NCBI RefSeq assembly: GCF_030580995.1
Contig: NZ_JAUQSZ010000001.1
Location: 124,001-188,000, forward strand
From: Sphingomonas immobilis
GTDB taxonomy: Bacteria; Pseudomonadota; Alphaproteobacteria; Sphingomonadales; Sphingomonadaceae
DNA length: 64,000 bases
Direction: 5' to 3'
Part shown: positions 8,776-59,749 of the stretch, piece by piece
How the letters are laid out: each line of letters starts with the position of its first letter
How positions within the stretch are numbered: the first letter of the stretch is position 1
Notes under the pieces: generated by a model
Database searches by the model: none
Seen by the model: the letters and a program-made list of their open reading frames with translations, nothing else
What the model was told of the DNA's origin: nothing
Position numbers and translations under genes: made by a program

Positions 8776-9264
8776 ATGCCGGGCCAAGCCACAGCCGCCT
8801 CCCCACTTTTTCTCCGCGAAGCCGAACTGCGCCGCGGGCTGGAATTGTTGTATTTCGGGAACAGCAACCTCACGCGCAGCATCGATCAGGGGCTGCACGA
8901 TCAGGGGCTGGGCCGGGCGCACCACCGCGCGCTCTATTTCATCGCGCGCCAGCCCGATCTGACGGTCAGCCAGTTGCTCGCCCTGTTGGCGATCACCAAG
9001 CAATCGCTGGGACGCGTGCTCAACGAGCTGATCGAACGCGGCCTTGTCGAGATGCGGCCGGGGGAGCGCGATCGCCGCCAGCGGCTGTTGCGGTTGAGCG
9101 CGGCGGGGCAGGGGCTGGAGGGCGAGCTGTTCGATGCCCTGCGCGAACGCCTGTCGGCCGCCTATGCGAGCGCCGGGCAGGCGGCGGTCGGCGGCTTCTG
9201 GGCGGTGCTGGAGGGGCTGATTCCCGAGGAAGAGCGCAAGCTGATGGCGCGGCTGGGAGACTGA
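8776..9264 (+). CDS. MarR-family transcriptional regulator
   Basis: 162-residue MarR-type dimeric winged-helix regulator. The DNA-binding region runs through LTVSQLLALLAITKQSLGRV (about residues 63-82), followed by a beta-wing rich in Arg/Asp (MRPGERDRRQRLLRLS), both typical of the family. The ATG at 8776 gives the most family-like N-terminus (MPGQATAASPLF). A TTG 21 nt upstream lies inside the palindrome and is an alternative. It is divergent from ilvE, an association also known for PetP-type MarR regulators in alphaproteobacteria. It probably represses itself and modulates ilvE; the effector is unknown. Confidence 0.87.
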   Translation: MPGQATAASPLFLREAELRRGLELLYFGNSNLTRSIDQGLHDQGLGRAHHRALYFIARQPDLTVSQLLALLAITKQSLGRVLNELIERGLVEMRPGERDRRQRLLRLSAAGQGLEGELFDALRERLSAAYASAGQAAVGGFWAVLEGLIPEEERKLMARLGD

Positions 9265-9335
9265 ACGGCCGCGTAAAGGGCCGCTCCGGGCGCGCTGTGG
9301 CGTCGCCGCCACAAGCTCTAGGTACATTGCCAGAG

Positions 9336-9363
9336 TGTAACGAAATCGTTGCCGATCTGTAAC
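9336..9363 (+). promoter_or_regulatory. Two TGTAAC repeats 22 bp apart upstream of a TBDR
   Basis: TGTAAC occurs at 9336-9341 and 9358-9363, two helical turns apart. The first copy is part of AGTGTAACGAAAT, almost identical to AGTGTAACGTAAT in front of the receptor at 54884. Whether this is an activator site such as a PhoB-like box or a shared promoter element cannot be decided from two examples. Confidence 0.25.
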
Positions 9364-9492
9364 TGTTGCGACGCATAACCCGCTTACGGCCCCGGTTCGG
9401 GGCAGGGCGATCGGTTCAGATCGGCGCGGGAGACAGCCCCGCAAGCGGCCATGCCGCGCGCAGGTTCGGGCAATCCAAGGGGCAGATTCCAC

Positions 9493-11865
9493 ATGAAAAT
9501 TTCGTTCTCGGCGCGGGTCGCGTCGCGGCTCGGCGGCGCGTTGCTGCTTTCGACCAGCCTGATCGCGAGCGTCGCGCACGCGGCGCCTGCGCCCGCCGAC
9601 GCCGCCGCACCGGCGGATGCGGACGTCACCGACCAGAGCCAGGACATCGTCGTCGTCGGCAGCGGCGAGACGCGATCGGTGCAGACGCTGCTGCCGCAGA
9701 ACCTCGACGTGCTGCCGCCGGGCACCAGCGTGCAGAAGGCGCTCAATTTCCTGCCCGGCGTCATGGCGCAGTCGATCGACGCGCTCGGCGTCAACGAACA
9801 GTCGCTGTCGCTGCAGGTGCGCGGCTTCAACACCACGCACCTCGGCTACACGCTCGACGGGATGCCGCTCGGCGACGGCGCGTACAACAATTACAACGGC
9901 CTCACGATCAGCCGCGCGCTGATCTCCGAAAACCTCGGCCGCGCCGATCTCGCGACGGGCATCGCCGGGCTCGCCATCGCCTCGACCAGCAACCTCGGCG
10001 GCGCGGTGATCTACACCAGCAGCGACCCGAGCAAGGAAGTCGGCCTGCGCGTCAGCCAGACGGTCGGCAGCGAGAACAGCCTGCGCACCTATGCCCGGCT
10101 CGACACCGGCGACATGGGCGGCCTCTCCGCCTATATCTCCGGCCAGTATACGAAGCAGGATCTGTTCGTGAACCAGGGTACGGGCAAGACCTCCACCGGC
10201 GAGCAGATCAACGCCAAGATCAAGTACGAGAACGAAGGCTTCACGCTGACGGCCTATGCCGACATCTCGCGCACCAACCAGGCGGACGACGCCTATATCT
10301 CGAAGGAGATCCTCGGGCGTCGCGGCTACGATCTCGGCGGCTACGCGCCGGACTGGACCTCGTACCTGCAGCGCAACGCCTGCACCGTGACGACCACGCC
10401 GGTCGCGTGCGTGCCATCGACGCTGCCGGAGAAGATCGGCGACGTCACCTACACCAACGGCCAGATCCTGCGCAGCGACGATCTCTTCTACATCGCCGCC
10501 GACTTCAAGATCACCGAGGCGCTCAGCGCCCGCGCACAGGTCTATCGCCACACCGACGGGGGTGCCGGCAACAACTTCATCACCGGCCTGTCGAACCAGG
10601 GCACGGCCTCGACCGCAGACGATCTGCCGGTGCAGATCCGCGACACGCGCTACACGATCGATCGCACCGGCGCGCTCGGCAATGTGAGCTGGCACGTCGG
10701 CTTCAACCATTTCGAGGCCGGCTTCTGGGTCGAGGAAAACACCAGCAGCGCGGCCCGCTACATCCGCACCGACGTGACCGGCCCGATCGATCTCGGCCAG
10801 TTCCTGCAGGGCCAGCCCGCCACCGCGCAGTGGGTGCAGGAAACCCAGTGGACCACGCGCCAGTTCTTCGTTCAGGACACGATGAAGTTCCTCAACGACA
10901 CGCTGAGCGTCGATTTCGGCTTCAAGGGCACCTATTCGCGCTCCGACGCGCGCGCCATTCCGGGCGTCGCCAAGGCGGCACCCCCGGCCTCGACCCAGTT
11001 CGCGACCGGATCGCTGGTGGCGGAGGATTATTTCCTGCCCGAGGCCGGCATCCGCTGGGAAGTCGCGCAGGGCCATGAGCTGTTTGCCAGCTACGCCGAG
11101 AATATCGCCATGTATCAGGGCGGCTTCAAGCTCGGGCCGCAGTCGGTCTCGCAGGCGGTGTGGGACGTGCAGGGCAAGACGCTGAAGCCCGAAACCTCGC
11201 GCAGCTTCGAAGGCGGCTATCGCTTCGTCAGCCGCGGCCTGCAGGTCTCGCTGACCGGCTATTGGGTCGATTTCAACAACCGCCTGCTGCAATACAACCC
11301 GTGCCCGACCGCGCAGCAGCAGAATCCGGGCTGCGGCAACTCGTTCCACAACGCCGGCAGCGTCACCAGCAAGGGCGTCGAACTCGGCGTGCTGTGGAAG
11401 CCGCTGCCGTTCGTGACGTGGTACAATTCGGTCTCGTACAATGAGTCGACGTACAACGAGGATCTCAACTTCTGCACCGCGACGTGCATCCTCTATCCGA
11501 CCGCGGGCAAGCAGCAGGTCGATACGCCCAAGTGGCTGGCGTCGAGCGTGCTGACCGCGAAATACGCGGGCTTCACCGGCTCGCTGTCGGGCAAGTACAC
11601 GGGTGAACGCTTCTACACCTACACCAACGATCAGGGCTTTCCGGGCTATTTCACGATGGATCTCGGGCTGAGCTACGATGTCGGCAACATCGGCCCGCTC
11701 AAGTCGGCGAAGCTGTCGCTCAACGTCACCAACCTGACGAACCTGCGGTATGCGTCGAACTTCGACAACAGCGTGTTCGCGCCGACCGATCCGACCGGCA
11801 CGATCATCGTCTTCCACTCCTCGGCCCCGCGGCAATTCTTCGGGACGCTGAGCGTGGCGTTCTGA
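9493..11865 (+). CDS. TonB-dependent receptor
   Basis: 790-residue outer-membrane receptor. The start MKISFSARVASRLGG gives a normal signal peptide ending AHA, followed by a TonB-box-like QDIVVVGSG. The plug domain contains LQVRGFNTTHLGYTLDGMPL and ends near SNLGGAVIYTSSDP. The C-terminal barrel ends FGTLSVAF, with the aromatic last residue expected. The extracellular-loop regions hold three cysteine pairs (NACTVTTTPVAC, NPC...GCGN, FCTATC) that could form disulfides. It stands alone: marR is upstream and LysR downstream on the other strand, so context does not reveal a ligand. The 228-bp upstream region has the TGTAAC repeats but no riboswitch that I can recognise. Confidence 0.9.
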   Translation: MKISFSARVASRLGGALLLSTSLIASVAHAAPAPADAAAPADADVTDQSQDIVVVGSGETRSVQTLLPQNLDVLPPGTSVQKALNFLPGVMAQSIDALGVNEQSLSLQVRGFNTTHLGYTLDGMPLGDGAYNNYNGLTISRALISENLGRADLATGIAGLAIASTSNLGGAVIYTSSDPSKEVGLRVSQTVGSENSLRTYARLDTGDMGGLSAYISGQYTKQDLFVNQGTGKTSTGEQINAKIKYENEGFTLTAYADISRTNQADDAYISKEILGRRGYDLGGYAPDWTSYLQRNACTVTTTPVACVPSTLPEKIGDVTYTNGQILRSDDLFYIAADFKITEALSARAQVYRHTDGGAGNNFITGLSNQGTASTADDLPVQIRDTRYTIDRTGALGNVSWHVGFNHFEAGFWVEENTSSAARYIRTDVTGPIDLGQFLQGQPATAQWVQETQWTTRQFFVQDTMKFLNDTLSVDFGFKGTYSRSDARAIPGVAKAAPPASTQFATGSLVAEDYFLPEAGIRWEVAQGHELFASYAENIAMYQGGFKLGPQSVSQAVWDVQGKTLKPETSRSFEGGYRFVSRGLQVSLTGYWVDFNNRLLQYNPCPTAQQQNPGCGNSFHNAGSVTSKGVELGVLWKPLPFVTWYNSVSYNESTYNEDLNFCTATCILYPTAGKQQVDTPKWLASSVLTAKYAGFTGSLSGKYTGERFYTYTNDQGFPGYFTMDLGLSYDVGNIGPLKSAKLSLNVTNLTNLRYASNFDNSVFAPTDPTGTIIVFHSSAPRQFFGTLSVAF

Positions 11866-11872
11866 TCCCGCG

Positions 11873-12772
11873 CTATCCCGCCGCCTTCACGTAATCGAGG
11901 AAAGCGCGAAGCGGCGGTGGCACGAGACGGCGGCCGGAATAATAGACGAACGGGCCGGAAAAACTCTGCCACCAGTCGGGCAGGATGGGCACGAGCGCGC
12001 CGCTTTCCAGATGCGGGCGCACCCAGTCCTCGAAGATGTGGATGATCCCGCCGCCCGCGATCGCCACGTGGATGGCAAGGTCGATCGCGGTCACGCGCGT
12101 GATGAGCGGCCCCTGCGGCTCGACCCGCACGATCTCGCCGTCGCGCTCGAACTCCCACGGGCTGGTCAGCGCGCCGCTGTCGAAGCGGCCGAGCAGGCAG
12201 GCGTGGCCGAGCAGGTCGCGCGGATGCTGCGGGCGGCCGCGCCGGTCGAGATAGGCGGGCGCGGCGGCGGTCGCCATGCGCTGTATGCGCGGACCGATCG
12301 GCATCGCGATCATGTCCTGCTCCAGCCGCTCCTCGTAGCGGATGCCCGCGTCGCAGCCCGAGGCGAGCACGTCGACGAAACCGTCCTCGGCGATGATCTC
12401 CAGCTTGATGTCGGGATAGGCGGCGAGGAAGCCGGGCAGGATCGCGGGCAGCACCAGCCGCGCCGCGCTGACCGGTACGTTGAGGCGCAGCTTGCCCGCC
12501 GGGGAATCGCGAAACGCGCCGACCGCGTCGAGCGCCGTCTCCACCTCGCCGAGCGCCGGGGTGAGCCGCTCGATCAACCGCGCCCCGGCCTCGGTCGGCG
12601 TGACGCTGCGCGTGGTGCGATGGAGCAGGCGCACGCCGAGCTGCGCCTCCAGCCGCCGCACCGCCTCGCTCAGCGCCGACGGGCTCGCGCCGCCGGTGCG
12701 CGCCGCCTCGCGAAAGCCGCGCGCGCGGGCGACCGCGAGGAACGCGTTGAGATCGCCGAGATCGGTTTTCAT
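11873..12772 (-). CDS. LysR-family transcriptional regulator
   Basis: 299-residue LysR regulator. The N-terminus (LGDLNAFLAVARARGFREAA, then SPSALSEAVRRLEAQLGVRL) is a clear LysR helix-turn-helix. The periplasmic-binding-protein-like effector domain begins about residue 90 (GKLRLNVPVSAARLVL). It is divergent from an aldo/keto reductase, with 92 bp between the starts, and very likely regulates it. Its stop lies only 7 bp from the end of the convergent receptor gene. Confidence 0.88.
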   Translation of the reverse strand: MKTDLGDLNAFLAVARARGFREAARTGGASPSALSEAVRRLEAQLGVRLLHRTTRSVTPTEAGARLIERLTPALGEVETALDAVGAFRDSPAGKLRLNVPVSAARLVLPAILPGFLAAYPDIKLEIIAEDGFVDVLASGCDAGIRYEERLEQDMIAMPIGPRIQRMATAAAPAYLDRRGRPQHPRDLLGHACLLGRFDSGALTSPWEFERDGEIVRVEPQGPLITRVTAIDLAIHVAIAGGGIIHIFEDWVRPHLESGALVPILPDWWQSFSGPFVYYSGRRLVPPPLRAFLDYVKAAG

Positions 12773-28531: not shown

Positions 28532-31339
28532 TCAGCGGAAGCCGTAGCGCACGCCGATCGCGAAGGTCCGGGCGAGGAGGGTGGTGCCGAGGTTGAAGCG
28601 CTCCGGCCCGCCGACATCGTCGAACTTGTAATAGGTCTGCTGCGTCGACTGAAGCAGGTTGACCGCATCGAAGGTGATGCCGAGCCGATCGGTGACGTTG
28701 TACGTCAACTGTACGTCGAGGCTGCTTTCCGGCGCGCGCCACACGCCGATCGGATTGGCGAACAGCCGTGCCTCGTTGTTGGCGAGAAATTCCTTGCGCC
28801 AGACGTAGGAGACGCGCGCGCCGACCGGGCCCTTATCGTACGCCAGCGTGGCATTGTACGAGAAGTTGGAGACGCCGAAGAACGCCGACTGGAACTGCCC
28901 GGTGAGATTGCCGGCGGAGTCGAACTGCGGGATGTTCTGGCTCGAATCGAGGAAGGTCGCGCTGCCCACGAAGCCGAGGCCGTCGAGCAGGCTCGGCAGG
29001 TAATGCGGGAAGTAGGTGACGCCGACCTCGATGCCCTTCAGCACGCCGTTGGATGCGTTGAGCGGGCGCGTGATCGCGAAGGTGTTGGTGGCGCCCGCGA
29101 CGATGCCGTTGTTGGGGATGGTCTCCAGCCGCGTGACCGGCACGACCAGCCCGTTGATCTCGCGACGGAAGCCCGTCACCGTGATCGCGCTGTCGCGGTC
29201 GAAATACCATTCTGCCGCGATGTCGAAGTTGCGCGACGTCGTCGGTTTGAGGTTGCCGGTGCCCGCCGAACCGCTGCCGTAGCCGACGTTGGTGAGATCG
29301 CCCGTCAGCGTGTAGTTCGGGTTGACGTCGGTGAAGTTCGGGCGGCGCAGCGTCTCGCCGTAGTTGAAGCGCAGCCGCAGCTTGTCGGTGATGGCGTAGC
29401 GGGCGGTGAAGCTCGGCAGGAACTTCTCCGCGCCGTTCGAGGCGTTGGTCTGCGCGAAATTGTTGTAGCGATCGAAGAACTTCGAATTGGTGTCGACCGT
29501 CACGAAGCGCACGCCGCCCTCCATCTGCAACGGGCGGCCGAACAGCGAGATCTCGGCATCGGCCTGCACATAGGCCGACAGCGTGATCTCATCGATGTCG
29601 AACACCGTGCCGAGCGTGAGCTGGTCCGAGGTCTTGAGGCCGTAGAGCGTGCGCACCTTGTCGGCATTGGCATAGACCCAATAGCCGTTGGCGAGCACCC
29701 AGCTCGTCGGGATATCGGCGCGGCCATCGAAGAAGCCCTTGTTGGTGAAGGCCGCATCCGCACCGAGCGAGGCGAGGCTGACGCCGAGGTTGCCGGCATC
29801 CTGCGACCGTACCGCCGTCGAGGCCTTGCGGTCATCGAAGCGGAAGCCGCCCTTGATGCGGCGCAGGAAGCCGTCGTCCCACGTATATTCGCCGTCGATC
29901 GTGCCGGTGATCGCGCTGCCCTTGTCGCGCTGGGCGTTGTCGTAGAGCTGGGCGACGTTCCACACGCTCGGGTCCGCCAGCAGCGCGTCGTTGGCGAAGT
30001 GATAGGAGGGGATGCCGCCGCCGGCGTTGAAATCGACGTTGATCGTGTCCGCCACACGGTCGGTACGCATCGCGATGAACGACGTATTGTAGGTGCTGGT
30101 CTGGTAGGCGAGATCGGCGACGATCTTGCCGTGCGTGCCGACGTCCCATTTGCCGTTCAGCGCGTAGACGAAGCTGTCGGTCTTGTTCTGCGTATAGTCG
30201 CCGCTGTTGAAGCCGTACACGCTGTTGGCGACGCGCGACTTCACGATGTTGGTGCCGTCGTACAGCGTCGGCTGCTGCGCGTTCGCCCAGAAATCGACGA
30301 AGCTGAACTGCAGGCTGTTGAAGGTGTTGCCGCGGAAGCCCGAGTAGAACACTTCGGCGGTGTAGACGCTGCTGCTGTTGGGTGCCCATTGCAGGGCGAC
30401 GTTGAACGAGGGGCGCACGCGCTCGCCGTACAGATCCGAGCTGAACACCGCGTCGCGCGAAAGATAATAGGGCGTGGCGACGCCATTGTTGATGAGCGTC
30501 GAGCCAGCCGCCGTCGGCAGGCCGCGATCGAGGCCGACCTGCCAGTTGGGCGGGCTCTTGCCGTCAGGGAAGATGCGCTCGAACGGGGCGAGGCCCGATC
30601 CGGCGGGCGGGTTCAGCGTCGCGAACGGTACGAGCGCGCCCGCCGTCGTCGTCATGTCGCGGTAGTTGGTCTTGCTGTAGCTGCCGTTCACCAGGATGCC
30701 GATATCGCCGATCCCGGTTTCCCAGCGGTCGCTGACGAGCAGGGCGGCGTTCGGATTGAAGGTATCCGCCTGCTGGTTGTAGATGCCGCGCGCGAGGCCG
30801 GAGATGGCGAAGCCCTTGAAATCGAATGGGCGGCGCGTCTTGACGTCGACCTGGCCGGCGAGGCCGGTTTCGATCTGGTCGGCCGAGCGCGTCTTGTAGA
30901 CGTCGACCTGCTTGATGAGGTTCGCCGAGATATCCTGCAGCGAGAAGGACTGGCCCGCCGCGGTGAAGATGTTGCGGCCGTTGAGCGTGGTGAGCGCGTC
31001 GGGCAGGCCGCGGATCGAGATGCCCGCCGCTTCGCCGCCGCTGCGGTTTGTCACCTGGATGCCGGTGACGCGCTGGAGCGCCTCGATGACGTTGTTGTCG
31101 GGCAGCTTGCCGACGTCTTCCGCGACGATCGAATCGATGATCTGCGTCGAATCCTTGCGGACGTTGAGCGCGCCGACGATCGAGGCGCGGACGCCGTGGA
31201 CGACAATGTCCGGCGCGTTGTCGTCGGTGGATTCCGCCGTCTGCGGAGGAGTCGATTGCGCCATCGCCGGTGCCGCCGCGAGCAGCGACAGCAGGGAAAC
31301 CGAGCACAGGATTACGGGCTTCATCGCCATTAGAAACAT
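28532..31339 (-). CDS. TonB-dependent receptor of the arabinose/arabinoglycan region
   Basis: About 935 residues, in the size class of oligosaccharide TonB receptors. The signal peptide (MAMKPVILCSVSLLSLL, ending AMAQS) is followed by PDIVVHGVRASI, a TonB box, and a plug with SIVAEDVGKLPDNNVIEALQ, the sequence typical of the sphingomonad/Xanthomonas carbohydrate-type receptors. The protein ends GVRYGFR. The ATG at 31339 has AGGA six bases upstream; nearby ATGs at 31345, 31330 and 31324 are alternatives. It precedes the MGH1-like glycosidase as a two-gene unit. A FadR-type operator candidate lies 31 bp upstream, so import of arabinose-containing oligosaccharides is a reasonable inference. Confidence 0.9.
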   Translation of the reverse strand: MFLMAMKPVILCSVSLLSLLAAAPAMAQSTPPQTAESTDDNAPDIVVHGVRASIVGALNVRKDSTQIIDSIVAEDVGKLPDNNVIEALQRVTGIQVTNRSGGEAAGISIRGLPDALTTLNGRNIFTAAGQSFSLQDISANLIKQVDVYKTRSADQIETGLAGQVDVKTRRPFDFKGFAISGLARGIYNQQADTFNPNAALLVSDRWETGIGDIGILVNGSYSKTNYRDMTTTAGALVPFATLNPPAGSGLAPFERIFPDGKSPPNWQVGLDRGLPTAAGSTLINNGVATPYYLSRDAVFSSDLYGERVRPSFNVALQWAPNSSSVYTAEVFYSGFRGNTFNSLQFSFVDFWANAQQPTLYDGTNIVKSRVANSVYGFNSGDYTQNKTDSFVYALNGKWDVGTHGKIVADLAYQTSTYNTSFIAMRTDRVADTINVDFNAGGGIPSYHFANDALLADPSVWNVAQLYDNAQRDKGSAITGTIDGEYTWDDGFLRRIKGGFRFDDRKASTAVRSQDAGNLGVSLASLGADAAFTNKGFFDGRADIPTSWVLANGYWVYANADKVRTLYGLKTSDQLTLGTVFDIDEITLSAYVQADAEISLFGRPLQMEGGVRFVTVDTNSKFFDRYNNFAQTNASNGAEKFLPSFTARYAITDKLRLRFNYGETLRRPNFTDVNPNYTLTGDLTNVGYGSGSAGTGNLKPTTSRNFDIAAEWYFDRDSAITVTGFRREINGLVVPVTRLETIPNNGIVAGATNTFAITRPLNASNGVLKGIEVGVTYFPHYLPSLLDGLGFVGSATFLDSSQNIPQFDSAGNLTGQFQSAFFGVSNFSYNATLAYDKGPVGARVSYVWRKEFLANNEARLFANPIGVWRAPESSLDVQLTYNVTDRLGITFDAVNLLQSTQQTYYKFDDVGGPERFNLGTTLLARTFAIGVRYGFR

Positions 31340-31369
31340 CCCCATTCCTAGCCGTTCGTGTGCGGCTAT

Positions 31370-54692: not shown

Positions 54693-54778
54693 GAAAGTCC
54701 CCCGGATTATGCTGAACCAGGGGTAAATTTAATGGGTTGAGGAGAGGTTAATGCGCGGGCGGACGCGGCGCGCCCAAG

Positions 54779-54814
54779 TGTAACGTAATATTTCCGGTGA
54801 CACGCTGTCGTAAC
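54779..54814 (+). promoter_or_regulatory. TGTAAC/TGTCGTAAC elements upstream of the TBDR-phosphatase operon
   Basis: AGTGTAACGTAAT (54777-54789) repeats the motif in front of the receptor at 9493. It is followed by GGTGACACGCTGTCGTAACG, which resembles PhoB half-sites (CTGTCAT-like) but is degenerate. Given the phosphatase in the operon a Pho box is worth testing; the sequence alone is weak evidence. Confidence 0.25.
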
Positions 54815-54883
54815 GCTCGCGCAACCGAAATGTCGCAATCCGCGCCTAGCGCGACCCCTGTTCACGAAGATTGGGGGTTTTCA

Positions 54884-57457
54884 ATGCGAGCGACGACAAC
54901 CGCGCTGCTGGCGCGTGCCGCGACCTGTGCGCTGGCCGCGGGTATGCTGTTCTCGACCGTTCCGGCGTTCGCGCAGGCTGATGCGCCGGCTGTCGAGGAA
55001 CCCGCGTCCACCGATGTCGTCGTGACCGGCACGCGCATGGGCCAGCGCAAGGCGGTCAACGAGAAGCACACCGCCGACAACACCGTCGAGGCGCTCTATG
55101 CCAACGATGTCGGCAAGCTGCCCGACCAGAACGTCGCGGAAGCGGTGCGGCGCCTGCCGGGCCTGACGGTCGCCAACGATCAGGGCGAGGGCCGCTACGT
55201 CATCATTCGCGGCATCGATCCCAATCTCATCAACGTCACGCTCAACGGCCAGACGCTGCCCGCGCCCGAGCCGAGCGGCCGTCAGGTCAAGCTCGACGAT
55301 CTGCCCTCGGCGATGATCCAGTCGGTCGTCGTCTCGAAATCCCTGCTCGCCAGCCAGGACGCCAATGCGATCGGCGGCGAGGTCAACATCAACACGCTGA
55401 CCGCGTTCGACCGGAAGCAGCGCCTTTTCCTCGATGCGCGCGCGTCGGCGGGCTATTCGAACCTCAACGGCAAGACGCCCTGGGAGATCGACGGCCAGAT
55501 CGGTGGCCGTTTCGGCGCGGAGGATCAGTTCGGCGCGGTGATCTCGGCCAATTACTCGCGCCGCCCGATCGAGTCCGAGAATTTCCAGGCGACCACGGCC
55601 TATACCGTCGTGGGCGGCGTGGCCCGGCCCGACCAGGGCGGCCTGCGCGACTATAACCTCGTACGCACCCGGCTCGGCATCGTCGGCAATTTCGATTGGC
55701 GGCCGAACGACCACACCAAGGTCTATATCCGCTCGAGCTATTCGAAGTTCACCGACAACGAGTATCGCGACCAGAACCGGCTCGACGCGATCACCTTCAC
55801 CGGCGCGGCGACCGGCACCTTCACCGGGCGCGGCGCGGTGCTGATCCGCCGGCGGCAGGAGGACGACAACACGAAGTCGGTGACGGCGGGCGTCGATACC
55901 GATCTGTTGGGCGGGCGGCTCGAAGCGTCGGGCGGCTGGACGCGGGCGGTGAAGCTCGATCCGCTGCGTTCCGAATTCCGTTTCCGCACGGGCAACAACG
56001 CCGTCGCCGGTAGCTATGATCTGACCACGGACCAGCCCTATATCTTCAATCCGTTCGTCGGCAGCGACCTCACCAAATACATCTTCAACTCGCTGAACAT
56101 CGAGACGCGGCAGGCGGCGGAGGATCTCTGGCAGTTTCGCGCCGACTACACCCACCCGATCGCGATCGGCGACGGTTCGAGCATCAAGATCGGCGGCAAG
56201 TATCTCGACCGGCACAAGACCAACAATCAGGACCGCGTGAATTACGGCACGGTCTCTGGCGCGGCCGGGTCGGCGAGCTTCCAGTTGCCGTCGGTCAGCT
56301 ACGTGTCCGACACCAATTTCTATGACGGCCGCTATACCTTCGGGCCGCGCATAGACTACGATAAGGCGCGCGCTTATCTCGCCGCGAATCCCGGCGTCGC
56401 TTCGATCACCACCGCCAGCACGATCTCCGACACGCTGGCGAGCGACTATGACGTGCGCGAGAGCATCGTCTCGGGCTACGCGATGGCGACGCTCAAGTTC
56501 GGCGGGCTGACGCTGATCCCCGGCATCCGCGTCGAGCATACGCAGGACAAGACCAAGGCGAAGATCGTCAACGGCAGCTCGACCACCGCGACCGACTTCA
56601 ACAGCTTCGGCGAGAAGAGCTACACCGACGTGTTTCCGGGCCTGAACGCGAAATACGAGTTCAGCCGCGAGCTGCTGCTGCGCGGTGCCGTGACGACCGC
56701 GATCGGCCGGCCGAATTATCCCGATCTCGCGCCGTACGTGATTACGGATACCAGCACCCCGGCGACGCCGCTCATCACGATCGGCAACCCGGCGCTGAAA
56801 CCGTACAAGGCGGTCAACCTCGACGCATCGATCGAATATTATCCGACGCCGGAAGCGGTGTTTTCGGCAGGCGTGTTCTGGAAGCAGATCGACAACCCGA
56901 TCTACATTTCCCAGACGCTCGGGGTGAACGGCACGTTCGGCAACGTGGCCTACACCAATGCCAGCGTCACGCAGTCGATCAATGCGCAGGACGAGACGCT
57001 GACCGGCGTCGAGTTCAACGCGCAATATCAGTTCACGCAGCTGCCAGGCTTCTTCGGCGGGTTCGGCGTGTCGGTGAACTACACCCACGTCTCGGGCCAT
57101 GCCAATGCGCCGGGCATCCGCGCGGGCAATCTGCCGCTCGCTTTCCAGTCGCGCGACAGCGGCACCGCGCAGGTGTTCTACGAGAAGTACGGCTTCGCGT
57201 TGCGCGTCGCCTACAGCTATCGTTCGAAATATCTCGATCTGCTCGGCACGAGCGCGGCGACCGACCAATATACCGACGACAACGGCCAGCTCGACCTCCA
57301 TGCCAGCTACCAGATTTTGCCGCAGGTGACGGTGTTCGGCGACGCCACCAACCTGACCGATGCGCCGTGGCGGCGCTTCATCGGCAACAAGGATCAACTG
57401 GTCGAGCGCGAGCGCTACAGCTATTCGCTGCGTGGCGGTGTGCAGGTGCATTTCTAA
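54884..57457 (+). CDS. TonB-dependent receptor linked to an acid phosphatase
   Basis: 857-residue outer-membrane receptor. The signal peptide (MRATTTALLARAATCALAAG, ending AFAQA) is followed by TDVVVTGTRMG and a plug with NDVGKLPDQNVAEAVRRLPG. GEGRYVIIRGIDPNLINVTL and SQDANAIGGEVNI are typical of the same receptor group as other oligosaccharide or phosphorylated-ligand importers. It ends LRGGVQVHF. The ATG at 54884 follows GGGGGTTTTCA. The phosphatase gene starts 13 bp after its stop, so the two are one operon. Uptake of a phosphorylated compound such as inositol phosphates is the most economical inference. Confidence 0.9.
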   Translation: MRATTTALLARAATCALAAGMLFSTVPAFAQADAPAVEEPASTDVVVTGTRMGQRKAVNEKHTADNTVEALYANDVGKLPDQNVAEAVRRLPGLTVANDQGEGRYVIIRGIDPNLINVTLNGQTLPAPEPSGRQVKLDDLPSAMIQSVVVSKSLLASQDANAIGGEVNINTLTAFDRKQRLFLDARASAGYSNLNGKTPWEIDGQIGGRFGAEDQFGAVISANYSRRPIESENFQATTAYTVVGGVARPDQGGLRDYNLVRTRLGIVGNFDWRPNDHTKVYIRSSYSKFTDNEYRDQNRLDAITFTGAATGTFTGRGAVLIRRRQEDDNTKSVTAGVDTDLLGGRLEASGGWTRAVKLDPLRSEFRFRTGNNAVAGSYDLTTDQPYIFNPFVGSDLTKYIFNSLNIETRQAAEDLWQFRADYTHPIAIGDGSSIKIGGKYLDRHKTNNQDRVNYGTVSGAAGSASFQLPSVSYVSDTNFYDGRYTFGPRIDYDKARAYLAANPGVASITTASTISDTLASDYDVRESIVSGYAMATLKFGGLTLIPGIRVEHTQDKTKAKIVNGSSTTATDFNSFGEKSYTDVFPGLNAKYEFSRELLLRGAVTTAIGRPNYPDLAPYVITDTSTPATPLITIGNPALKPYKAVNLDASIEYYPTPEAVFSAGVFWKQIDNPIYISQTLGVNGTFGNVAYTNASVTQSINAQDETLTGVEFNAQYQFTQLPGFFGGFGVSVNYTHVSGHANAPGIRAGNLPLAFQSRDSGTAQVFYEKYGFALRVAYSYRSKYLDLLGTSAATDQYTDDNGQLDLHASYQILPQVTVFGDATNLTDAPWRRFIGNKDQLVERERYSYSLRGGVQVHF

Positions 57458-57470
57458 GGGAGCAAGCGCG

Positions 57471-58670
57471 ATGTGGCGTTCGGGTCTGATCGCGGCGGTG
57501 CTGCTGGCGGGGGCCGCGGACGCGCAACCGCCCGCGCCGCCGAAACTGACGGTGGAGCGCGTCGTGCTGCTGATGCGGCACGGCGTGCGCCCGCCGACCA
57601 AGGCGCCGGCCATGCCGGCGCGCGTGACGCCCGAGCGTTGGCCGGAGTGGCCGGTCGCACCAGGATATCTGACGCCGCATGGCGCGGACGCGGTGACGGC
57701 GCTCGGCGTGGCGGACCGTGCCGGGCTGACGCGCAGCGGCCTGCTGGCGGTCGGCGGATGCCCGAAACCGGGGACGATCGCGATCATCGCCGATAGCGAC
57801 CAGCGCACCATCGCCACCGCCGACGCCTGGCTGAAGGGCGTCGCGCCGGGCTGCGCCGCTTCGCGTGAGCAGAAGCCGCAGGGCGAGGACGATCCCTTGT
57901 TCGGGCCGCTCGGCAATGGCGCGACGATCGATGCGGATGCCGCAAATGCTGCGGTGAAGGCGGCGATCGGGCCGGGTGGACTTGCCGCCGCCGACCGGAA
58001 ATATGCGCCGCTGCTGAAGCGGCTCGACACGATCCTGTGCGGGAAGCCGCGCGCCGGTTGCGGCGTGAGCGGGGAGCCAACGACTCTCGTCCCGGCGACG
58101 CCTACTAGTCGGCCGAAGATCGACGGTGCGCTCGATACGGCATCGACGGCCGCGCAGATCCTGCTGCTCGAATATGCCGACGGCAAGCCGCTGTCGGAGA
58201 TCGGCTGGGGCCGCGCGAGCGCCGCCGACGTGACCGCGCTGTCGGAGTTCCACGCGCTCGAATTTCGCCTGCTCGCGCGGCCGCTGCCAGTGGCGCGGGC
58301 GAACATGGCGCTGCTCAACCGCAAGATCGATGCTGCGCTCAATGCTGCGGACGGCGCGCTCGTGACCATGATTTCCGCGCACGACACGCAGATCGCCAAT
58401 TTCGGCGGGCTGATCGGCGGGCACTGGCACGTGCCTGGCTTCGCCGAGGACGATCCCGCGCCCGGCGGCGCGATCGTGATCGAGCGGGTGCGCGATGCGA
58501 AGGGCGCGGCCTTCGTGCGGGTGAAATATCGTGCGCAGCCGCTCGGTCGCCTGCGTGCCGGCGGGGCGGGGACGTTCGAGCAGCCGATGACGATCGCGGG
58601 TTGCGGCACGCCCAAGCCGGTCACGCTCTGCCCGGCGGAGCGGTTCGCGGCGTTGCTGGGCACGAAATAG
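57471..58670 (+). CDS. Histidine acid phosphatase (phytase-like), exported
   Basis: 399-residue branch-2 histidine phosphatase. A signal peptide (MWRSGLIAAVLLAGAADA) directs it to the periplasm. The active-site signature is LLMRHGVRPPTK with the nucleophile His37, and the proton donor pair is His304-Asp305 in ISAHDTQI. Cys residues at GGCPK, GCAAS, LCGKP/GCGVS and GCGTP/LCPAE suggest several disulfides, as in AppA-type phytases/4-phytase. AAGGGAGC precedes the ATG. It is co-transcribed with the receptor at 54884. Together they fit import and dephosphorylation of an organic phosphate; true phytase activity is not proven by sequence. Confidence 0.9.
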   Translation: MWRSGLIAAVLLAGAADAQPPAPPKLTVERVVLLMRHGVRPPTKAPAMPARVTPERWPEWPVAPGYLTPHGADAVTALGVADRAGLTRSGLLAVGGCPKPGTIAIIADSDQRTIATADAWLKGVAPGCAASREQKPQGEDDPLFGPLGNGATIDADAANAAVKAAIGPGGLAAADRKYAPLLKRLDTILCGKPRAGCGVSGEPTTLVPATPTSRPKIDGALDTASTAAQILLLEYADGKPLSEIGWGRASAADVTALSEFHALEFRLLARPLPVARANMALLNRKIDAALNAADGALVTMISAHDTQIANFGGLIGGHWHVPGFAEDDPAPGGAIVIERVRDAKGAAFVRVKYRAQPLGRLRAGGAGTFEQPMTIAGCGTPKPVTLCPAERFAALLGTK

Positions 58671-58714: not shown

Positions 58715-59749
58715 ATGATTGCCCCGCACCGCCTGCGCCTCGATACCGCCGCTCTTGTCGCCAATTGGCGCGCGCTGGCGAAGCTGAGCGGGGCCGCCGC
58801 GTGCGGCGCGGCGGTGAAGGCCGATGGCTATGGGCTGGGCGCGATCGAGGTCGCACGGCGGCTCGCGGACGCGGGGTGCCGCGACGTCTTCGTGTCGAGC
58901 TGGGCCGAGGCTGACGCACTGGCGCCGCTCGGTCTGCCGGTCGCGGTGCTGCACGGGGTACGCGAGGAGGATGTCGCGGCGGCGAAGGCCGGGATCGGCT
59001 GGCCGGTGCTCAGCACGCCCGCGCAGGTCGCGCGCTGGCGGGCGGCGGGCGGCGGGCGCTGCGACGTGATGATCGACACCGGCATGAACCGGCTCGGCCT
59101 GTCGGCGGAGGCGGTGGGCGAGGGCGTGCTCGACGGATTGGAGATCGGTACGCTGATGAGTCACCTCGCCTGCGCGGAAGAAGACAGCCCGATGAACCGC
59201 CGCCAGCGCGATGCCTTCGCAAGCCTCGCCGGACGGACCGGCGCGGCGCGGATGAGCCTCGCCAATTCGGCCGGGATCGCGCTGGGTGCGGACTATGCCT
59301 TCGACCTGACGCGGCCGGGGCTGGCGCTGTACGGCGGCGTGCCATGCGCGGCATTGGCGGGCGTGATCCGGCCGGTGGTGACGCCCGAGGCGCAGATCCT
59401 GCAACGGCGCGTGCTGCGCGCGGGCGACACGATCGGCTATAACGCGACCTATATTGCCGATCGCGATGTCGAGGTGGCGATCCTCAATATCGGTTATGCC
59501 GACGGCTATTGGCGTGGCTTTTCGGGCGGGAAGGGCGCTGCGCTGCACGACGGCGCGCGCCTGCCTGTGCTAGGGCGCGTGTCGATGGATCTGACCGCGA
59601 TCGCGGTCGATGCCGCGCCGGAGCTGGCAGAGGGCGACTGGGTCGCGCTCGACTATGCCTTGCCGAAAGCGGCGGCGGCATCGGGCATGTCGCAGTACGA
59701 GCTGCTGACGGGGCTGGGCGCGCGGTTCGCGCGTTGCTGGTTCGACTGA
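58715..59749 (+). CDS. alr: Alanine racemase
   Basis: 344-residue PLP enzyme that makes D-alanine for peptidoglycan. Lys35 in AVKADGYGLGA is the Schiff-base lysine. IDTGMNRLGLS, SHLACAEE and the Tyr-containing AGDTIGYNATY (catalytic Tyr, usual GYG/GYN context) follow in the normal order. VSMDLTAIAVDA is the C-terminal domain signature. Start MIAPHRLRLDTAAL at 58715 gives the family length; upstream frame to 58601 overlaps the phosphatase. The gene is 44 bp after the phosphatase and may be read through from it, but is likely to have its own expression as an essential gene. Confidence 0.93.
   Translation: MIAPHRLRLDTAALVANWRALAKLSGAAACGAAVKADGYGLGAIEVARRLADAGCRDVFVSSWAEADALAPLGLPVAVLHGVREEDVAAAKAGIGWPVLSTPAQVARWRAAGGGRCDVMIDTGMNRLGLSAEAVGEGVLDGLEIGTLMSHLACAEEDSPMNRRQRDAFASLAGRTGAARMSLANSAGIALGADYAFDLTRPGLALYGGVPCAALAGVIRPVVTPEAQILQRRVLRAGDTIGYNATYIADRDVEVAILNIGYADGYWRGFSGGKGAALHDGARLPVLGRVSMDLTAIAVDAAPELAEGDWVALDYALPKAAAASGMSQYELLTGLGARFARCWFD

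Follow-up and report, generated by a model that had tools for sequence, protein, structure and literature searches.

A TonB-dependent receptor and an AppA-like phosphatase in a predicted PhoB-controlled operon for phytate acquisition in Sphingomonas immobilis

Which compound does a TonB-dependent receptor carry when its gene is followed by that of an exported phosphatase, and is it phosphate, carbon, or a metal that the cell obtains from it? The question is raised by a gene pair in a stretch of Sphingomonas immobilis DNA (the window: 64,000 nucleotides, positions 124,001 to 188,000 of contig NZ_JAUQSZ010000001.1), which a sequence-only reading had interpreted as an organic-phosphate (phytate-type) import operon. 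Much of the organic phosphorus in soil is phytate, and in the literature examined its passage across the Gram-negative outer membrane is only conjectured. Our analysis supports the earlier interpretation, given the AppA fold and active site of the phosphatase, the tandem kept in relatives, the beta-propeller phytase genes that neighbor homologues of the receptor, a PhoB box that has the spacing of this genome's own pstS promoter and is kept in relatives, and the genes for PhoB, PhoU, and PstB. We assign a probability of about 0.68 to the whole explanation, i.e., that the operon is a PHO-regulon system for the acquisition of phytate (inositol polyphosphate). Gene order, enzyme family, predicted fold, active-site residues, linkage, and the operator-like site are computed.

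The gene pair and its conservation

The two genes lie on the same strand:

54884..57457, + strand: TonB-dependent receptor (TIGR01782), 857 amino acids (aa), signal peptide recognized by eye, plug and barrel; predicted outer-membrane importer of phytate or inositol phosphate
57471..58670, + strand: histidine acid phosphatase, AppA-like, 399 aa, signal peptide recognized by eye; predicted periplasmic phytase

Both open reading frames (ORFs) run from an ATG to a stop codon and leave a gap of 13 bp (57458-57470), the distance already given in the sequence-only reading. In the 200 bp before the phosphatase gene there is no PhoB box (−11.7 bits with the pstS-trained matrix described below), and the pair therefore probably shares one promoter. 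The receptor scores 561 bits against TIGR01782 (cut-off 310), has plug and barrel domains by Pfam, and carries at residues 44-49 the motif DVVVTG, which we take to resemble a TonB box. No SusD-like partner of the kind that would indicate a PusCD-type system lies beside it; the flanking genes encode a haloacid dehalogenase (HAD) hydrolase and the phosphatase.

The phosphatase belongs to PF00328 (histidine phosphatase branch 2; 64.5 bits, cut-off 23.6). The RHGxRxPT motif and HD pair that had been reported as intact are so, as RHGVRPPT at residues 36-43 and HD at residues 304-305, and R36, H37, G38, R112, H304, and D305 do not vary across the 58 sequences aligned, the window's included. The best matches among PDB sequences are phytases, from Hafnia (E 3e-53) and Escherichia coli (2e-51), and the predicted model (predicted local distance difference test score, pLDDT, 94.7) superposes on AppA with bound inositol hexakissulfate (7z2s) with Z 47.9 and 2.8 Å over 374 residues at 34% identity; prostatic-type acid phosphatases reach Z 28.6. 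That the protein is an inositol-phosphate phosphatase is, on this predicted structure and active site, highly probable. Glucose-1-phosphatase also matches, in sequence (5e-30) as in structure (Z 42.7), and histidine acid phosphatases are broad in substrate as a class. Both points would suit a PHO-controlled operon of the same make that imports another organic phosphate (sugar phosphates, nucleotides, or phospholipid head groups); that the nearest solved relatives are phytases speaks against it, and we return to this alternative below.

Relatives of the phosphatase were collected by a scan of GTDB species genomes, from which the best 80 of 144 confirmed named loci were used, a choice biased to close relatives and with some near-duplicates (L148, L151, L152, and L154). 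They occur in Sphingomonas, Novosphingobium, Sphingopyxis, Caulobacter, Asticcacaulis, Phenylobacterium, Pseudoxanthomonas, Rhodanobacter, and others. Of the 80 loci, 44 have a receptor gene immediately before the phosphatase gene and on its strand; the receptor is of the window's type in 39 of them, and the median gap, taken up to the aligned start, is ∼21 bp. This is the arrangement of a phytase-linked TonB transporter pair kept in relatives. Among 199 family genomes, 15 gave a phosphatase match, one of which (G097, E 9e-4) was very weak and partial, and 9 had close receptor homologues (44% identity or more; the next is 37%). Phosphatase and receptor go together: the former is present in 8 of the 9 genomes with a close receptor homologue versus 6 of the 190 others, a count over the 14 clear phosphatase genomes (G097 left out) that ignores kinship and uses a homologue threshold set after the data were known. 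The two genes might be adjacent by chance, as receptors are numerous in such genomes and 36 of the 80 phosphatase loci have none directly upstream; however, the window's receptor type holds that position in 39 loci across genera, and this conservation already makes chance very unlikely.

Other features of these loci were recorded alongside. Three of them (L136, L140, and L155) hold a gene for a different TonB-dependent receptor, placed downstream of the phosphatase and in the opposite orientation (about 9200-11900, − strand), and a contig titled Mycobacterium sp. MAG (L166) carries the phosphatase at 45% identity and is probably mis-binned. In the window, a large opposite-strand ORF (54881-58663) was set aside as a mechanical product of the genome's high GC content. 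An alanine racemase gene (58715-59749) starts in the same direction 44 bp after the phosphatase stop codon and may be read through; it was left out of the operon because in L115 and L116, the nearest relatives, the gene that comes next is on the opposite strand and is not the racemase gene.

A predicted PhoB operator before the receptor gene

To score PhoB boxes, we built a matrix from 30 pstS promoters found in the family; its consensus is cTGTCATcAAAcTGTCACgcAActGTCAC, with a period of 11 bp over three half-sites. The receptor promoter was read as follows:

54779..54785, + strand: TGTAACG, named in the sequence-only reading; beyond the operator and off its register, probably no half-site
54797..54825, + strand: predicted PhoB operator, three half-sites GTGACAC-GCTG-TCGTAAC-GCTC-GCGCAAC with an 11-bp period; pstS matrix, 7.2 bits
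54830..54836, + strand: fourth, degenerate PhoB half-site ATGTCGC, in the same register, read by eye; several relatives have a GTCGC-like sequence there
54847..54852, + strand: −10 hexamer TAGCGC, 21 bp past the third half-site; the genome's own pstS promoter has this hexamer at this distance

Two PhoB half-sites had been proposed earlier; one of them, TGTCGTAAC (54806-54814), overlaps the second half-site of the operator and can stand, and the other, TGTAACG, is rejected for its position outside the box and off the 11-bp register. A score of 7.2 bits is reached by 0.8% of 3000 dinucleotide shuffles, by 1.2% of 3000 random windows, and by 0.6% of 6000 windows taken elsewhere. Adding a TA 21 bp downstream, a condition set after the sites were known, leaves none of the 3000 shuffles; this TA is present in 13 of the 30 pstS promoters and in 15 of 27 receptor promoters (window included), and the next commonest offset accounts for 3 and 4 promoters, respectively. 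A strict scan of the promoter for a two-half-site E. coli-type consensus gave nothing convincing (best 9/14).

The box recurs in relatives. Among the 39 tandem relatives, from which L187 is excluded (its receptor gene is cut by the contig end), 25 have one at the p 0.05 level and 20 at the p 0.01 level, measured against random-window nulls that contain true boxes and are thus conservative. At the 0.05 level it is found in 24 of 26 relatives with the window's receptor type lacking an STN domain and in the single one with another receptor type. Other receptors near the phosphatase proved unsuited as controls, 10 of 24 having box-like sites of at least 6.7 bits, and a separate control family (window 28532-31345 and its relatives) was used for this reason. 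With nulls drawn from windows away from these loci, 25 of 30 promoters of the wider receptor clade, window included, have a box versus 2 of 14 in the control family (Fisher p 2e-5, the sequences being related). The tandem and wider-clade tests are not independent, as the named loci overlap the family genomes (L146 is G138, L160 is G171, and there are others). Box-like sites of 11.7-16.7 bits also lie upstream of phosphatase genes that lack a receptor directly upstream (L140, L143, L155, and L161). At L115 (Sphingomonas sp. NFR15), a gene for a Type I phosphodiesterase/nucleotide pyrophosphatase (9206-10486) adjoins the operon on the other strand and has a box-like site of 12.9 bits.

The genome encodes PhoB (TIGR02154, 335 bits, cut-off 296), PhoU (TIGR02135, 219 bits, cut-off 130), and PstB (405 bits, cut-off 343). 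No PstS was found in the genome by TIGR00975; PstS was assigned by its position beside PstB, with 152 bits in TIGR02136, below the cut-off of 207. That the operon is under PhoB control is, on the predicted operator and its recurrence, very likely. The genome also holds a second phosphate-type operon (L041:4263-9359, i.e., C11:70533-75629 in its own coordinates) with a PhoD phosphatase, a PhoB-like box (15.5 bits, at L041:5817), a receptor 36% identical to that of the window, and a 278-aa protein without a Pfam match (L041:8523-9359). Relatives of this protein occur in L094, L095, L098-L104, and L107, and they lie beside the receptor in 11 of the 31 clade loci examined, L041 included; the protein is a candidate new organophosphate-handling protein.

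Ligand of the receptor and purpose of the import

The enzymes that accompany the receptor point to its ligand. Among the nine genomes with a close receptor homologue, the phosphatase adjoins it in three and a beta-propeller phytase lies at most 1.5 kb away in five, both being present in one, and a phytase-type gene thus adjoins the receptor in seven; the exceptions are G155 and G081, the latter with its phosphatase about 5 kb from the receptor. A beta-propeller phytase gene is found beside the receptor in four of the six genomes whose receptor homologue does not adjoin the phosphatase, and it is divergent from the receptor gene in G083, G067, G186, and G094. In G138 (Novosphingobium sp. BIN27) the order is receptor, beta-propeller phytase, receptor, phosphatase, and G094 has a split receptor gene and no phosphatase match. 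Broken-frame receptor genes adjoin beta-propeller phytase genes at L096 (G094) and L092 (G067). Across the 80 named phosphatase loci, a beta-propeller phytase lies within the examined stretch in 8, and in one, from Sphingomonas natans, a gene for a PHO4 phosphate transporter comes after the pair. One receptor type beside two unrelated enzymes that act on phytate points, as gene context, to phytate or its breakdown products as the ligand, and we consider it likely that the receptor carries inositol phosphates.

Import of a different organic phosphate under the same control gains something from the receptor's more distant relatives (about 35% identity), which have a PhoD neighbor in 4 of 31 loci. 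Against it, the close receptor clade alternates between histidine acid phosphatases and beta-propeller phytases, whose known shared substrate is phytate, and we regard this alternative as rather unlikely. Phytate chelates iron, as is generally known and as a passage of PMC3400609 states, and in structure the receptor is matched best by receptors for cobalamin and siderophores, although such matches would be expected for any such receptor. The receptor could accordingly import ferric (or other metal) phytate, from which the phosphatase would release the metal; the PhoB box and the three unrelated kinds of phosphatase partner in the clade argue against metal acquisition, to which we give little credence.

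The opposite emphasis, with inositol as the target and phosphate as a by-product, has some basis in other lineages. A gene for IolD (the query, from G186, exceeds the curated IolD cut-off) lies within the examined stretch at 5 of the 80 loci (L176, L181, L187, L189, and L190). Pfam-checked iolC-DUF2090, iolD-like, and iolE-like genes are present at L190 and a Pfam-checked gene for an RpiR-type regulator at L187; no PhoB box lies upstream of the receptor at L181 and L190, and the site at L176 passed the box test (p 0.011) and was judged unconvincing. The receptor promoters of L176, L181, and L190 have a TTTGTTCGTA stretch in common. The iolD neighbors suggest that the module can serve inositol use elsewhere. 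In the present genome, however, no IolD was found above the cut-off (best 182 bits versus 715; the same search gives 922 bits in G186), and a PhoB box precedes the operon. Carbon acquisition by this operon is thus highly improbable, and inositol would go unused as carbon in this strain. The earlier claim that the purpose is phosphate rather than carbon fits this genome and fails as a general rule for the module.

Control, too, appears to vary. Relatives with an STN-type receptor (all 12 match the STN domain with an E value of 0.001 or lower, 7 of them above the gathering score) are probably controlled by an extracytoplasmic function (ECF) sigma factor and FecR, as judged from the genes checked at one locus, L145. 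There, in Novosphingobium sediminicola (L145:3606-7982), genes for an ECF sigma factor, FecR, and an STN-type receptor precede the phosphatase gene, and the module is apparently under trans-envelope signaling in place of PhoB.

Returning to phytate acquisition in S. immobilis, the operon would work as follows. At phosphate shortage, phosphorylated PhoB would bind 54797-54836 and recruit RNA polymerase to the −10 hexamer at 54847. The TonB-driven receptor would bring phytate or lower inositol phosphates, whose size and charge would hinder passage through porins, into the periplasm, where the AppA-like phosphatase would free phosphate by way of phospho-His37, with Asp305 as proton donor; the freed phosphate would then enter through PstSCAB. 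PhoB binding, carriage of the substrate by the receptor, and cleavage of phytate are what we infer from the computed features.

A number of results weigh against this account. The phosphatase scores below the curated cut-off of the AppA equivalog profile (NF007552, 223.4 versus 585 bits), for which reason it is called AppA-like and not assigned as AppA, with its substrate a prediction; moreover, the residue after HDT, Asn in 49 of the 58 aligned sequences, is Gln in 7 of the 58, the window's enzyme among them. The operator is weak, at 7.2 bits versus 14-41 for the 30 pstS boxes (those from which the matrix was derived), and the two control promoters that pass the test score 12.8 and 7.5 bits. 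None of the 12 STN-type tandem relatives has a box. Conserved barrel positions with Lys or Arg are in slight excess only in the receptor clade's alignment (28 of 182, versus 21 of 199 in the control receptor family), and no signature of polyanion binding emerged from this comparison. By BLAST with eight receptor queries, 22 of the 80 phosphatase loci have neither a receptor nor a beta-propeller phytase nearby, an overestimate in that another receptor is present in L136, L140, and L155, and in the same-genus genome G155 the receptor and phosphatase genes lie on different contigs.

More broadly, we see even odds that a TIGR01782 clade of the Sphingomonadaceae, largely PhoB-controlled, is dedicated to organic phosphates and swaps both its enzymes (AppA-like phosphatase, beta-propeller phytase, or PhoD) and its control (a PhoB box, STN-type receptors with ECF sigma/FecR, or no PhoB box beside inositol catabolism). 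If so, its members beside phytases would be the first transporters of the outer membrane for which phytate import is shown. The two-gene operon with its readable PhoB operator, kept in many Sphingomonas and Novosphingobium genomes, makes such import directly testable, and the occurrence of one receptor-phosphatase module under different controls would allow a comparison of how a single molecule is used for phosphate and for carbon.

Comparison with known systems

Receptor neighbors of beta-propeller phytases were reportedly noted in the survey of phytate-utilizing bacteria by Lim et al. in 2007. A parallel comes from Citromicrobium, a marine bacterium that belongs to the same wider group as S. 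immobilis. There, as in the window, a TonB-dependent transporter gene adjoins a phytase gene, with phytic acid as the proposed substrate (PMC3400609, 2012); the window adds an enzyme identified as AppA-like and a PhoB box, whereas the Citromicrobium passage gives neither the phytase class nor a regulatory site. In Flavobacterium johnsoniae, the receptor and phytase of one locus (Fjoh_1367/1368) are both raised under phosphate depletion (PMC8115612) and resemble the window pair, but the phytase is of the beta-propeller type (PF02333), the organism belongs to the Bacteroidetes, and the PUS loci described there have SusCD-like pairs, unlike the window receptor with no SusD neighbor. The PhoB regulon of Caulobacter crescentus, likewise an alphaproteobacterium, contains TonB receptors and a phytase, the regulation predicted for the window; the portion of text seen (PMC11208175) does not describe a receptor-AppA tandem.

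On the enzyme side, E. coli AppA and the Hafnia alvei phytase have the same fold and catalytic residues as are predicted for the window phosphatase, which differs from them in its 34% identity, its HDTQ for HDTN, its score below the equivalog cut-off, and its TonB-dependent receptor partner. The words phytate, phytic, and phosphorus are absent, by term search, from a 2024 review of TonB-dependent uptake (PMC11658791). At the level of titles, abstracts, and passages, in a search that mostly excluded subscription journals, we found no account of a receptor operon that combines an AppA-like phosphatase with a PhoB box. The pairing of receptor and phytase is already known in outline.

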